Of a DNA stretch of 64,000 nt, positions 46,473 through 50,874 are shown piece after piece. Each line of letters starts with the position of its first letter. Position 1 is the first letter of the stretch. A model generated the notes under the pieces. It saw only the letters and a program-made list of their open reading frames with translations, searched no databases and was not told where the DNA came from. A program made the translations under genes and the position numbers. Source of the DNA: Bacteroidales bacterium. GTDB taxonomy: Bacteria > Bacteroidota > Bacteroidia > Bacteroidales > UBA932. The DNA lies in the NCBI GenBank assembly GCA_017620335.1, contig JAFZQO010000010.1, forward strand, positions 1 through 64,000, given 5' to 3'.

Positions 46473-46508
46473 ATCAAAAACTCCGTGTAAACCCGAATAA
46501 ATTTTAGA

Positions 46509-46540
46509 TTTGTCAAAGACTGTTTTTATGCGTAACTTAG
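46509..46540 (+). promoter_or_regulatory. Promoter of the kinase-peptidase-PqqD-ABC cluster
   Basis: TTTG (46509-46512), 20 bp, then TAACTTAG (46533-46540), one mismatch from consensus. The expected start site lies around 46547, which favours ATG 46566 over the TTG at 46545 as the first start codon. Confidence 0.6.
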
Positions 46541-46565
46541 CAGGTTGAAAACACTTTGCAGTTAT

Positions 46566-47462
46566 ATGACCAGGGCTTTCTGCGTGGCAGGACATACTTT
46601 CCATCTCGAGATGCCGGACGGGTCCCCCGCCTGGGATCTTCTTTCACAGTACAGGGACTTCACGGCCGATCCGGTCGACACCCCTCTTTTCGTCCTCAGG
46701 ACGGTGGAAGAGCTGCCGGAGTTGGAGAAGGAGCCGCTTCTGGTTCCCGGGAGCAGGGAGGAAGGCGAGCCGAGGCTTGACCTGTATTCCTGCGGGGAGG
46801 ATTTCCTCGTGGAGATGGCTCCGCTGGCCAGCCTGCCCGTCAGCAGCCGCTTGCTGATGAGTGGGGATTACCGCCGGGCGAGCCTCCTTTTCCTCAAGGG
46901 TTCCGGCCAGTCCATGCTCTTCGCGCTGAACAACGCCCTGATGCTTCTCTACGCCTTCAGCAGCGCTCCTTACATGACACTGGAGGTGCATGCGTCGGTC
47001 ATCGGGAACGGTGGTAAGGGATACCTGTTCCTGGGTAAGAGCGGAACCGGCAAGAGCACGCACAGCAGCTTGTGGCTCAAATATATAGAGGGGAGCGAGC
47101 TGATGAATGACGACAATCCCATCCTGCGTGTGGGCGACGACGGGGTTGCCAGGGTGTACGGCTCCCCGTGGAGCGGCAAGACCCCCTGCTACCGCAATGT
47201 CTGCGCTCCTGTCGGTGCGATAGTCCGGATACGCCAGGCAAAGCACAACACCCTCACACGCCAGAACACCCTGGAGTCATATGCCTCCCTGTATTCCTCG
47301 TGTTCCGGCTTCAAGGCTGACCGGAAGATTTCGGATGGGCAGCACAAGGCCCTGGAGCACATCGCCCTGAACGTGCCATGTTTTTGGATGGACTGCCTGC
47401 CGGACGCGGATGCCGCCCGAGTCTGCGCCGCCGGAGTGCGGAAGGAGGATGACGATGCCTAA
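46566..47462 (+). CDS. HPr-kinase/PEP-carboxykinase-fold putative serine kinase
   Basis: 298 residues. LEVHASVIGNGGKGYLFLGK then SGTGKSTHSSLWL carries the P-loop GKSGTGKST (157-165) in the fold seen in HPr kinase. NDDNP (181-185) is the acidic metal-binding motif and YGSPWSGK (198-205) a conserved loop of the kinase-like group. Related kinases occur in lasso-peptide clusters, where they phosphorylate the peptide. The ATG at 46566 is chosen from promoter position; a TTG start at 46545 would add seven residues. It is followed by peptidase, PqqD and ABC exporter genes with small overlaps. Confidence 0.75.
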   Translation: MTRAFCVAGHTFHLEMPDGSPAWDLLSQYRDFTADPVDTPLFVLRTVEELPELEKEPLLVPGSREEGEPRLDLYSCGEDFLVEMAPLASLPVSSRLLMSGDYRRASLLFLKGSGQSMLFALNNALMLLYAFSSAPYMTLEVHASVIGNGGKGYLFLGKSGTGKSTHSSLWLKYIEGSELMNDDNPILRVGDDGVARVYGSPWSGKTPCYRNVCAPVGAIVRIRQAKHNTLTRQNTLESYASLYSSCSGFKADRKISDGQHKALEHIALNVPCFWMDCLPDADAARVCAAGVRKEDDDA

Positions 47463-47901
47463 GATCGTCGTTCCCAACGCCATCCTCTTGGGTGAGGTGA
47501 AGCAGCTGCTTTCCGAGGGCAAGGACGTAGTGATCCCTACCAAAGGGAACAGCATGCTCCCGTTCATCAGGGGAATCCGCGACAGCGTGATGCTGCGCAG
47601 GCTGGACACCCTTGAGGTAGGGGATATCGTGCTGGCTGAGATACGCGAGGGGGTATATGTCCTCCACCGCGTGACGGCGCTGGACGGAGACGTGGTTTCG
47701 CTGATGGGCGACGGAAACCTCCGCGGCGTCGAACGCTGCAGGCGGGGTAATATCGCCGGCACGGCTATGACAATATTGAAGGACGGTGTCAAGGAAGTGG
47801 ACTGCAGGAGCCCCAGGGCCCTGCGCCGGGCCAGGAACTGGCGAAGGCTGATGCCCTTCCGCCGCATCATCCTTGGAATATATAGAAGGATTTTCCTATG
47901 A
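47455..47901 (+). CDS. Signal-peptidase-like S24/S26 family protein (Ser-His-Asp type)
   Basis: 148 residues. The nucleophile Ser33 is in KGNSMLPFI. The general-base position is His71 in YVLHRVTA rather than lysine, and Asp86 lies in LMGDGNLRG. This Ser-His-Asp pattern is that of SipW/Sec11-type signal peptidases. No clear membrane helix is seen, so it may be soluble. The ATG at 47455 has GGAGG eight bases upstream and overlaps the kinase gene by eight bases; an ATG two codons earlier is also possible. It is a candidate leader-removing protease for the cluster. Confidence 0.75.
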   Translation: MPKIVVPNAILLGEVKQLLSEGKDVVIPTKGNSMLPFIRGIRDSVMLRRLDTLEVGDIVLAEIREGVYVLHRVTALDGDVVSLMGDGNLRGVERCRRGNIAGTAMTILKDGVKEVDCRSPRALRRARNWRRLMPFRRIILGIYRRIFL

Positions 47902-48167
47902 AGCTAATCGAAGGATTCAGGCTCCGCCCCCTGGGCAAGGAGTACATAGTGACGCCGGAGAGCGTCGCACAGATCAATTTCAACAAGATGATCTCCCTCA
48001 ATTCGTCCGCAGCCTATCTTTGGAAGTCGGTCGAAGGGAAGGAATTCACCCCCGAGGACCTGAAGCAGCTCCTCCTCGACCGCTATGACGTGGACGAGGA
48101 GATAGCAGGACGCGACGCCGTAGCCATAGCGCAGAGCTGGATTGAGGCGGGCATAGCTGAAGCATGA
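47898..48167 (+). CDS. PqqD-family peptide-binding protein
   Basis: 89 residues with the PqqD pattern: EGFRLRPLGKEYIVTPESVA, then INFNKMISLNSSAAYLWKSV, and a C-terminal helix ending SWIEAGIAEA. PqqD-type domains bind the leader of ribosomally made peptides and present them to modifying enzymes. Start overlaps the peptidase gene by four bases (ATGA). It is stand-alone, not fused, and implies that a precursor peptide exists somewhere in the genome. Confidence 0.85.
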   Translation: MKLIEGFRLRPLGKEYIVTPESVAQINFNKMISLNSSAAYLWKSVEGKEFTPEDLKQLLLDRYDVDEEIAGRDAVAIAQSWIEAGIAEA

Positions 48168-48171
48168 TGCC

Positions 48172-49818
48172 ATGAAGGATTTCCGCACCTGCATGAAAGG
48201 CCTGACGGCCATGGGCCGTCCGCTCTGGGGCAAGGTCCTCGTGAGCTGTATCATCGGAGTGGTGAGGATCGCCGCTTCGATGGGCTTCGTGTGGGTGTGC
48301 AAGGCCCTCGTGGACATCGCCACGGGCGAATCTTCGGCCCCTATCGGGCTGTATGTCGGAATCATGGTGGGAATCATGTTGGTGCAGGTCGTTTTTTCCG
48401 TCGCCTACGGCTGGTGGGAGGGAATGATAGTCACCAAGGTGCAGAATGACTTCCGCTCGAAGGTATTCGGACATGTGCTTGAAAGCGAATGGAACGGTCG
48501 CGAAGCCTTCCATTCAGGGGATATGGTAAACCGCCTTGAAGAGGATACGCGCGTGGTCGTGGACTTGCTCTGCACCCGTGTCCCGGACTTCATCATCACC
48601 CTGGTCCAGCTGGTAGCCGCCTCGGGATTCCTCTTCGTACTCGAGCCCCGTCTCCTCTGGGTGCTCCTGATCCTGATGCCCGTGGCCGCCATCGGCAGCA
48701 AGATGTTCTTCAAGGTCATCCGAAGGCTCACTTCGCTCATCCGCGCCAAGGACAGCGAGATCCAGGGACACATGCAGGAGAACCTCCAACAGCGCGTCCT
48801 CATCAAGACCCTGGGATGCGAGGAGCGCGTTACCGGCCGTCTGGACGAACTGCAGGATGATGTGATGCGCAATACCGTGCGGAGGCTGAACTATAATGCC
48901 GGAGCGCGTTCGTTCTTGCGCACAGGTTTCATGGCGGGATACGCCGCGGCCTTCCTGTGGGGAGTGTTCGGCATCAGGAGCGGTGCCGTGACCTTCGGCA
49001 TGATGACCGCTTTCCTGCAGCTGGTCGGCCAGGTGCAGAGGCCTATAGCCGACATCAGCCGCCATATACCGGCTTTCATCCATTCCCTCACTTCCGTGGA
49101 GCGTATCATGGAACTTACAGAGATGAAAGCGGAAGACAAGGGTGGGGACATCCTTTTCGAAGGCGCACCCGGCATAAAGGTGGAGGATGTGACATTCGCG
49201 TATACCGACGTCCCCGAAGGCGTGGAGCCGCTGAAGGTCTTCGAGCATTTCTCATATGACTTCAAGCCCGGCACCGTGACCGCCGTCATGGGTGTGACCG
49301 GCGTCGGGAAGAGCACGCTGACGCGGCTGGTCCTGGCGCTGCTGCGCCCGGCCGCCGGCAGCGTGACCCTGTACGACGCCGGCCGCTCGGTCCCGGCCTC
49401 TCCCTCCACCCGCTGCAACTTCCGCTATGTTCCGCAGGGCAACAGCCTGATGAGCGGCACCGTCCGCGACAATCTCCTGATGGCCAATCCTATGGCCACG
49501 GAGGAGGAGATGAAGGAGGCGCTGCATCTGGCGGTGGCCGACTTCATCATGGACCTGCCTGACGGCCTGGATACAGTCTGCTCGGAGAAGGGCAGCGGCC
49601 TGAGCGAGGGACAGGCGCAGCGCGTCGCGATAGCCCGGGCGCTCCTTCACTCCGGAGGAGTCCTCATCCTGGACGAGGCCACTTCCGCCCTCGACCGCGA
49701 CACCGAGGACGAACTGCTGCTGCGCCTCTCTAAAAAACTGAGCGGCGGGAAAACCATTATCTGGATCACCCACCGCGAGTCTGTCACGAGCATCGCAGAC
49801 GCCGTGCTGAAAATCTGA
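48172..49818 (+). CDS. ABC exporter, fused permease and ATPase
   Basis: 548 residues. The N-terminal half has about six membrane helices (VLVSCIIGVVRIAASMGFVW through FMAGYAAAFLWGVFGI). The ATPase half has Walker A GVTGVGKST, signature GLSEGQAQR, Walker B GVLILDEATSALD and the H-loop histidine in WITHRES. There is no N-terminal C39 peptidase domain, so leader cleavage must be done elsewhere, possibly by the peptidase-like gene upstream. It starts four bases after pqqD and is convergent with the FISUMP gene. Confidence 0.92.
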   Translation: MKDFRTCMKGLTAMGRPLWGKVLVSCIIGVVRIAASMGFVWVCKALVDIATGESSAPIGLYVGIMVGIMLVQVVFSVAYGWWEGMIVTKVQNDFRSKVFGHVLESEWNGREAFHSGDMVNRLEEDTRVVVDLLCTRVPDFIITLVQLVAASGFLFVLEPRLLWVLLILMPVAAIGSKMFFKVIRRLTSLIRAKDSEIQGHMQENLQQRVLIKTLGCEERVTGRLDELQDDVMRNTVRRLNYNAGARSFLRTGFMAGYAAAFLWGVFGIRSGAVTFGMMTAFLQLVGQVQRPIADISRHIPAFIHSLTSVERIMELTEMKAEDKGGDILFEGAPGIKVEDVTFAYTDVPEGVEPLKVFEHFSYDFKPGTVTAVMGVTGVGKSTLTRLVLALLRPAAGSVTLYDAGRSVPASPSTRCNFRYVPQGNSLMSGTVRDNLLMANPMATEEEMKEALHLAVADFIMDLPDGLDTVCSEKGSGLSEGQAQRVAIARALLHSGGVLILDEATSALDRDTEDELLLRLSKKLSGGKTIIWITHRESVTSIADAVLKI

Positions 49819-49821
49819 TTC

Positions 49822-50817
49822 TTACTGATGGTCGCGGACGCAGCGTACGTTGGCCGCGAAAGAAGCCTTGTCCGCATGCCCCATGAAGAGGTCCGGACTC
49901 TCGTCGAAGAAATACCTGTAGAATGCCTGTTCTCCGTCCTTCTCGTCCGAGGTCCAGAAGGTCGCGTAATCGTACATGGAGTTGAAACGCGGCCTGGTCT
50001 CCTGCTTGATGGCGTAGCCGAGGGGGAGCATGGAGAGGCCAAGCTTGTTGGTGATCTGTACCTTGGGCCAGTACTCCCACATCTTGTTTCCGTTAAAATA
50101 GATGTCACCCATGAAGCCTCCGGCGACGGAATAGAAGCGTGCGGAGGGCTCGGGGCGCTCGCCGAGGATGGCCGAGGCGGCGTCAGCCCAGTCGTCGAGG
50201 CTTGACAGGCGCCATCCCTCCGGGCAGGCGGTCCCGGCTTCTCCCCATGTATAGAAGCGGCCGAACACGTCGGAAGTAGCCTCGCAGTTGGCGAGGGGGC
50301 TGCCGGCGCCCTTGAATGCGAGATTCTCCTTGAACCATTCGGTGGAACCCACAGTGGTGCACCAGTACTCGTGCCCGTCGCGGGGATCGGTGAACTTGAA
50401 ATCCTTGCCCTCGTCGAAGGAGAAGCCGCTGATGCTGCCGTTCTCCCTGTCGGACTTGACTATGGTGACGGACTGGGAAGAGCTGGAATTGTAGTATCCT
50501 TCGGCATAGGCGACACAATAGACGGTGACCGTGCAAAGCGTGTCGGGGAGGGTTATCGAGTAGGTGTAGGAGGTGTCCCTGTCGGTCTGGATGGGGCTGG
50601 AATACCAGTAATACTTGACGACCGCATCCTTGTCCGAAGCGCTGACGCCCTTGGCGGTGAAGTTGAAGCTGTCGCCCGCGACGGCATACTCAGGGAGGGT
50701 GAACTCCGGCGCTCCGTCGAGGTAATCGAACGTCTCCGTATTGTCTTTCTTGCAGGAAGCCAGGCTGAGAGCGGCAACTACTGCCAGGCCTGCAAGGATG
50801 TATCTTTTGATGTCCAT
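49822..50817 (-). CDS. FISUMP-domain lipoprotein
   Basis: 331 residues. The lipobox is ALSLASC after a hydrophobic signal. A beta-sandwich-like region covers about 25-115. The Fibrobacter succinogenes major paralogous (FISUMP) domain follows, with FKFTDPRDGHEYWCTTVGST and EWFKENLAF, FYTWGEAGTACPEGWRLSSL and FWTSDEKDGEQAFYRYF. Such proteins are surface or secreted in Bacteroidota; their role is unknown. The ATG at 50817 (MDIKRYILAG) is chosen over ones six codons upstream. It is unlikely to belong to the neighbouring ABC cluster, being on the other strand. Confidence 0.85.
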   Translation of the reverse strand: MDIKRYILAGLAVVAALSLASCKKDNTETFDYLDGAPEFTLPEYAVAGDSFNFTAKGVSASDKDAVVKYYWYSSPIQTDRDTSYTYSITLPDTLCTVTVYCVAYAEGYYNSSSSQSVTIVKSDRENGSISGFSFDEGKDFKFTDPRDGHEYWCTTVGSTEWFKENLAFKGAGSPLANCEATSDVFGRFYTWGEAGTACPEGWRLSSLDDWADAASAILGERPEPSARFYSVAGGFMGDIYFNGNKMWEYWPKVQITNKLGLSMLPLGYAIKQETRPRFNSMYDYATFWTSDEKDGEQAFYRYFFDESPDLFMGHADKASFAANVRCVRDHQ

Positions 50818-50874
50818 GATGGTCATTATGATCATTTAACTCGCAAATATCGTCATTTTTGGCTTAAAAACCAC

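Follow-up and report, generated by a model that had tools for sequence, protein, structure and literature searches.

Linear polyphosphorylated peptides (LPPs) are ribosomally synthesized and post-translationally modified peptides (RiPPs) of Bacillota, described in Nat Commun in May 2026 from the lpp cluster of Paenibacillus alginolyticus (PMC13381572). In Paenibacillus, LppK repeatedly phosphorylates Ser3 of the core peptide, LppS together with LppB takes off the leader, and loss of LppN made no visible difference in a heterologous host; the class was called Bacillota-restricted and of unknown function, and its clusters also occur in capsule loci (PMC13381572). The string "bacteroid" has 0 occurrences in the main text of that paper (PMC13381572), and no paper on such a gene set in Bacteroidota was among the matches listed in the open PMC literature. 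The system considered here is a four-gene operon in a window of 64,000 nucleotides (the whole stretch of DNA analysed: positions 1 to 64,000 of contig JAFZQO010000010.1, assembly GCA_017620335.1) of a Bacteroidales bacterium of the UBA932 lineage. It encodes an HPr-kinase-like protein (K), a SipW-like serine peptidase (S), a stand-alone PqqD protein or RiPP recognition element (RRE; B), and an ATP-binding cassette (ABC) exporter (D); in relatives, a nucleotidyltransferase (N) of PF14907 (NTP_transf_5) can be added. We propose, at a probability of roughly 0.8 and judging from sequence, that the operon is the core of a Bacteroidota LPP-like RiPP pathway with dispersed precursors, many of them paired with surface lipoproteins.

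The Bacteroidota set shares with the LPP cluster a putative HprK-like kinase, a discrete RRE with the N33/D70 pair, a SipW-like Ser-His-Asp leader peptidase, an MsbA-like exporter, and a nucleoside triphosphate (NTP) transferase, as well as precursors with a YxxP leader and a Ser shortly after it, and in neither does a cyclase stand in the cluster. Unlike in the LPP cluster, the precursors are mostly dispersed and often lie upstream of lipoprotein genes, the NTP transferase is often encoded in trans (in the window genome, in trans only), and the cores are short, with Trp among the last five residues in 51 of 89 peptides. The full LPP leader, YxxPxVLxHQxIxFETxxS, does not recur, EVhEhxhE and [IF][AC/LM]xS being found in its place in Bacteroidota. 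Because the parts and the recognition residues match but the leader, the dispersal, the nucleotidyltransferase, and the lipoprotein pairing differ, we call the set LPP-like rather than a proven LPP system. The HPr-rel-A system (NCBIfam TIGR04352/TIGR04353) also joins an HprK-related kinase with a PqqD-like protein, but the kinase of the window reaches only 16.2 bits with HprK_rel_A against a TIGR04352 cut-off of 200. Radical SAM/SPASM RiPP systems have in common with the set a stand-alone PqqD protein, a Y..P leader, and a downstream lipoprotein-type gene, whereas a radical SAM maturase replaces the kinase and the peptidase.

Conservation of the cassette

Of the 149 genomes of the family, 59 contain a relative of the kinase, and an order sample of 168 genomes contained 38 with a kinase match at E ≤ 1e-5, eight of which were strong and near-full-length (>270 bits). 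A scan of GTDB contigs gave at least 590 confirmed relatives, and the closest 80 were kept; these best 80 come from Bacteroidales records, many of them ruminant, some from Prevotella and Bacteroides, and one labelled Fibrobacter. Together with 39 loci from family genomes and the window, and after removal of 2 duplicates, 118 kinase loci could be compared, the contiguous run around the kinase being defined by gaps <400 bp on either strand.

This run contained the peptidase in 106, PqqD in 108, the exporter in 85, and the nucleotidyltransferase in 28 of the 118 loci, which are lower bounds, since some loci stop at contig edges. The order K-S-B-(N)-D was kept in 65 of the 118 (55 with K-S-B-D, as in the window, and 10 with K-S-B-N-D) and is therefore above chance; K-S-B-N without D was found in eight. 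Across the 80 loci with a complete set, the distances of one protein correlate with those of the others (Spearman 0.70-0.79). An earlier note on this DNA had made its reading depend on co-conservation of the four-gene order, which is indeed kept across genera, and had proposed looking nearby for a short frame or a nucleotidyltransferase, both of which adjoin the cassette in relatives. Certain recurrent neighbours seem to reflect lineage synteny.

Some cassettes stand close to polysaccharide-type genes: L056 and L066 near Wzc-like, sugar transferase, and glycosyltransferase genes, L072 and L073 near a MatE flippase-like gene. In L093, L094, L103, L106, L110, L112, L115, and L120, K-S-B-N is directly followed by a peptide starting MKK.N and then by a gene of 327-372 aa.

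Protein assignments and recognition residues

The PqqD protein matches PF05402 (Pfam, E 2.3e-13). All of 112 aligned sequences, including a second PqqD from the window genome, keep its N35 and D73. In the PqqD profile alignment, these residues correspond to LppB N33 and D70 in PDB entry 9x8z, two residues that hold the Pro bend and the Tyr of the leader in the solved LppB-leader complex, the paeninodin RRE having Gly and Gln at these positions (PMC13381572). Among solved structures, the profile matches the lasso RRE TfuB1 best (E 3e-6). A PqqD protein with no peptide-binding surface, which the earlier note had considered damaging to its reading, is thus not what the conserved leader-contact Asn/Asp pair points to.

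The kinase lies under every model cut-off, with phosphoenolpyruvate carboxykinase (PEPCK; 18.1 bits against 369) and the above-mentioned HprK_rel_A as the best weak NCBIfam matches and a weak PEPCK match (E 0.021) in a PDB sequence search. PEPCK and HPr-kinase-type models have a common fold. H142, SG-GKSTH, NDD, and G-PWSG are kept in 118 of 118 sequences, and since H142, the P-loop, and NDD are conserved across this alignment, the protein is assigned as a putative HPr-kinase-like enzyme on its motifs. As to a grouping with general metabolic kinases, likewise raised by the earlier note as a counter-argument, the protein reaches no metabolic-kinase cut-off, though PEPCK is among its weak matches.

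The signal-peptidase-like protein is under the Pfam cut-offs (S24, 18.1 bits against 23.3) and has weak PDB matches to LexA (E 0.021) and SEC11C (E 0.55); its Ser/His/Asp triad is invariant in 106 of 106 aligned sequences, and no N-terminal membrane anchor was evident by eye. In the exporter, PF00664 and PF00005 are over their cut-offs, MsbA is among the best NCBIfam matches yet under that model's cut-off, and a C39 domain was not found, as expected from the earlier description of an exporter devoid of its own C39 peptidase. Assignment to a defence system was tried and rejected: PADLOC matched the ABC protein alone (mad3, E 7e-25; mad8, E 1.5e-6), which was read as common ATPase sequence.

A family of putative precursor peptides near the cassettes

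All small open reading frames (ORFs) in the neighbourhood of the cassettes that do not fall within large genes were clustered with no motif presupposed, and the top cluster, from 17 loci, is a peptide with a Y..P leader. An iterated leader profile, run over all loci, found a clear member (score ≥31) in 30 of them. Peptide and kinase have the same direction, with no opposite-strand gene between them, in 23 of the 118 loci; in the other seven with a clear peptide, it lies on the opposite strand from the kinase or is parted from it by genes. The gene orders include K-S-B-N-D-peptide-523aa (L140), B-N-D-peptide-667aa-K-S (L060), and K-S-B-D-peptide-644aa (L048 and L051), the latter being the order of the window plus the peptide.

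Over 89 distinct kept peptides, the leader consensus is Y..P.hEVhEh.hE..[IF][AC/LM].S; 57 of the peptides have the Ser exactly at Tyr+19, and 84 have it between Tyr+18 and +21, the Tyr having been a selection requirement for part of the 89. The finding of pN<pS in 35 of 35 related peptide pairs indicates that the peptides evolve as coding sequence. Pfam gave no match for 16 peptides scanned, and NCBIfam matched five families among these 16 with one weak member apiece, so that neither collection has a model that covers these 16; in the PDB, the only match of the peptide profile was to a ribosomal protein (E 0.18) and of no use, and one Prevotella-like peptide had no match in a plasmid collection.

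Searching plasmid records by tblastn with the kinase as query yielded two matches. One of them, OY725995.1 of Phocaeicola massiliensis, was held out and not used for the profile, and its peptide scored 52.6, above every locus-profile match. This peptide is followed, all in one direction, by a 1089-aa lipobox ORF, PqqD, the nucleotidyltransferase, the ABC exporter, the kinase, and the S26 peptidase. The second match, Prevotella sp. oral taxon 299, has the kinase, peptidase, and PqqD together, and no peptide within the 16 kb fetched.

These peptides bear on another reading, in which a surface polysaccharide or its anchor, and not a peptide, is what the cassette modifies or exports, the co-occurrence with peptides being indirect. 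Such a role would fit the position of some cassettes near Wzc, sugar transferase, and flippase genes, the PF14907 gene that follows a Wzc-like gene in the window genome, and the occurrence of Bacillota LPP clusters in capsule loci too (PMC13381572). Nevertheless, the stand-alone RRE keeps invariant leader-binding residues, 23 loci and the held-out Phocaeicola record carry a peptide gene within the same-strand run, and for the Bacillota counterparts action on a peptide was demonstrated (PMC13381572), so that a polysaccharide role appears unlikely.

Co-occurrence with the kinase and dispersal of the candidate precursors

A leader model of 33 rows was searched against the 149 family genomes, and its matches were set against those of the kinase search of these genomes. 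At E ≤ 0.1, the peptide was present in 51 of 59 kinase carriers vs 9 of 90 non-carriers; without the 14 seed genomes, it was present in 37 of 45 carriers vs 9 of 90 (Fisher 5e-17), and at E ≤ 0.001 in 47 of 59 vs 6 of 90. The order sample, minus two overlapping genomes, gave a similar picture, with the peptide in 3 of 6 genomes that have a full-length kinase vs 3 of 160 others (p 5e-4), or in 5 of 36 with any kinase match vs 1 of 130 (p 0.002). Within a single genus (g15, 11 genomes with a listed genus), carriers were richer in peptides than non-carriers (one-sided p 0.016).

Carriers have a mean of 4.1 peptide matches at E ≤ 0.1 and up to 13. Among 99 transcribed matches in non-seed carriers, nine lay ≤10 kb from the kinase (about 0.9 expected), some of these being close relatives of seeds, and 90 lay farther away, so most precursors are encoded in trans. 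The nucleotidyltransferase can be distant as well: PF14907 occurs elsewhere in the genome in 14 of 18 carriers without N beside the kinase vs 1 among 18 of the 90 non-carriers, and in this single non-carrier (G002) the gene adjoins PqqD.

Candidate precursors in the window genome

The leader profile, run over all small ORFs of the 64-kb window, found no precursor, the best score of 9.8 (threshold 12.5) belonging to an ORF that runs antisense to a large gene. The earlier note had seen no precursor near the operon and took the substrate to be atypical or encoded elsewhere; the latter agrees with three candidates on other contigs: C51:164507, ahead of a 617-aa lipoprotein-like ORF; C53:3017, ahead of a 587-aa lipoprotein-like ORF; and C43:90163, flanked by a radical SAM/PqqD pair on one side and a 1003-aa lipoprotein-like ORF on the other. 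A fourth leader match, with an E value of 0.8 and within an 832-aa frame, was set aside. Two PF14907 nucleotidyltransferase genes (LppN-like) are over the cut-off in this genome, both on C51, and one of them follows a Wzc-like gene.

Beside this Wzc-like/PF14907 locus, C51 (L159 9153-13645) carries the Y..P peptide, a biofilm-matrix-like ORF, and an 820-aa secreted protein with DxSxS (by eye); the downstream protein matches the SipW-dependent biofilm-matrix model below its cut-off. A further peptide at L159 14255-14446 has a similar leader, with F replacing Y and a Trp near the C terminus, and is possibly a degenerate precursor. On C43 (L034 7312-12325), the genes for a radical SAM/SPASM maturase (a TIGR04463-like protein that stays below the cut-off), PqqD, the Y..P peptide, and the 1003-aa lipoprotein-like ORF are consecutive, and this set looks like a second RiPP system with the same leader type and a similar lipoprotein pairing.

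The union of radical SAM enzyme, PqqD, Y..P peptide, and lipoprotein on C43 raises the possibility that the Y..P peptides mainly serve other PqqD systems of the radical SAM type and that the cassette has another, unseen substrate. By motif, however, no radical SAM ORF was found in the 40 peptide loci L167-L206, and the peptides occur within cassette runs and strongly co-occur with the kinase; we consider this reading quite unlikely.

Pairing with lipoprotein-type genes

Of the 88 distinct peptides away from contig ends, 72 are followed within 200 bp by the start of a same-strand ORF of ≥150 aa, and a lipobox gene lies within 200 bp downstream of 59 of the 88, compared with a background of 126 of 553 called genes in the same loci; the median gap from peptide to downstream ORF start is 17 bp. 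Pfam placed four of ten downstream proteins over cut-off (Big_2 with Lcl_C; DUF4465; LRR_5; Mfa_like_1), and two downstream proteins match the FISUMP model below its cut-off. The position of most peptides examined, immediately upstream of a lipoprotein-type gene, suggests that the surface protein encoded there is probably what the modified peptide serves. In genome G258 (L168-L174), the peptides are scattered, and most end in Trp followed by acidic residues.

Weighing of the evidence

A last alternative would make the cassette a lasso-peptide tailoring set with its cyclase and B2 protease encoded elsewhere and a phosphorylated lasso peptide as product, and this is very unlikely: kinase, nucleotidyltransferase, PqqD (B1), and ABC exporter do resemble the paeninodin-type accessory set (PMC7533575, PMC13381572), and weak matches among the 16 scanned peptides are to a paeninodin precursor model (E 0.069, one peptide) and a lasso model (E 0.077, one peptide), but no B2 (PF13471) is over cut-off in the window genome, the SipW-like peptidase occupies the place of B2, the leader and the RRE are of Tyr type, not Trp type, with Asn/Asp where the paeninodin RRE has Gly/Gln, and no cyclase adjoins the cassette. 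A cyclase does not appear to be a standard neighbour, since no non-core family, not all of these being annotated, recurs in >16 of the clustered loci; no genome-wide cyclase search was made.

Several observations weigh against the LPP-like reading. The genome co-occurrence tests take no account of phylogeny, and near-identical relatives leave some of the counts mutually dependent. Eight of the 59 kinase carriers have no peptide match, with PqqD present in 6 of 7 of them searched. The nine matches in non-carriers are about the number expected by chance at E ≤ 0.1, but six are below 1e-3, and eight of these nine peptide-bearing non-carriers are without a matching PqqD. The leader type is not exclusive to the kinase cassette, because the C43 peptide adjoins a radical SAM enzyme that has a PqqD of its own, and neither HQ nor FET follows YxxP in the Bacteroidota leaders. 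As to the proteins, PEPCK is among the weak matches of the kinase, five of the ten downstream proteins are without any Pfam match and one has a beta-helix match below cut-off, and none of eight peptides in G258 has a lipobox neighbour. Furthermore, C53 is a contig of only 6 kb in an assembly with 4% contamination, and misbinning is therefore possible.

Organization of the operon in the window

The earlier note had described four tightly packed genes behind one promoter, and all are present in one operon, 46566-49818 (Table 1), in which kinase and peptidase overlap by 8 bp, peptidase and PqqD overlap by 4 bp, and PqqD and exporter are 4 bp apart. For the kinase, a TTG at 46545 is a possible start, and the ATG at 46566 agrees with the family alignment; for the peptidase, 47455 is favoured over the listed 47410, since the N-terminal stretch is mostly gap in relatives. 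The box ahead of the operon is of the form TAnnTTTG, which we take to be the Bacteroidetes -7 promoter motif, and 23 such boxes occur in the window vs 9.5 expected. Outside the operon, the neighbours are a DUF4290 gene and, on the opposite strand, a FISUMP-domain lipoprotein gene (49822-50835, minus strand) that converges on the operon; the leader profile found no Y..P peptide ahead of the latter.

Table 1. Features of the operon, with positions in the window
Feature	Position	Strand	Remarks
Promoter -7-like box	46505..46512	+	TAGATTTG (TAnnTTTG); ~54 bp 5' of kinase ATG
HPr-kinase-like kinase (LppK counterpart)	46566..47462	+	Motifs H142, P-loop 157-165, N181-D182-D183, 199-GSPWSGKT-206
S26B/SipW-like serine peptidase (LppS counterpart)	47455..47901	+	S33, H71, D86 in numbering from the 47455 start
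Stand-alone PqqD/RRE (LppB counterpart)	47898..48167	+	N35, D73 = LppB N33, D70
MsbA-like ABC exporter, membrane domain + ATPase (LppD counterpart)	48172..49818	+	PF00664, PF00005

Proposed pathway and its meaning

According to the conserved residues and the analogy with LppB, there is a strong case that PqqD would bind the Y..P leader of a small precursor. The HPr-kinase-like enzyme would then likely phosphorylate the Ser just after the leader, typically at Tyr+19, the SipW-like peptidase would likely cut the leader near [IF][AC]-x-S, with PqqD presenting the precursor, and the ABC protein would likely export a linear product. The PF14907 nucleotidyltransferase could add a further group, perhaps a nucleotidyl or a sugar moiety; in the window genome, nucleotidyltransferases and precursors would be supplied from other contigs. 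The sequence of recognition, phosphorylation, leader cleavage, and export proposed in the earlier note gains support from the conserved residues, the peptide family, and the match to LPP. The operon, its co-conservation, the residues, the peptide family, its co-occurrence with the kinase, and the lipoprotein pairing are seen in the sequences themselves, and the chemistry is inferred from homology. The modified peptide may finally serve the neighbouring surface protein, be it fimbrillin-like, leucine-rich repeat (LRR), Big_2, DUF4465, or unassigned, perhaps by acting on or with this lipoprotein.

At slightly less than even odds, it could further be suggested that one central kinase-peptidase-RRE-exporter machine serves many scattered precursors, each translated with its own adhesin- or fimbrillin-type lipoprotein, and that the phosphorylated, perhaps nucleotidylated or glycosylated, peptides join or act on surface adhesins. 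If true, such central service would for the first time provide a likely function for the LPP class. Because the peptides pair with lipoprotein-type genes, including fimbrillin-like and LRR ones, peptide modification may be tied to the cell surface. A counterpart of LPP in many Bacteroidales would make a family of unnamed small peptides predicted substrates, and substrates so scattered would be apt to escape cluster-based RiPP mining.

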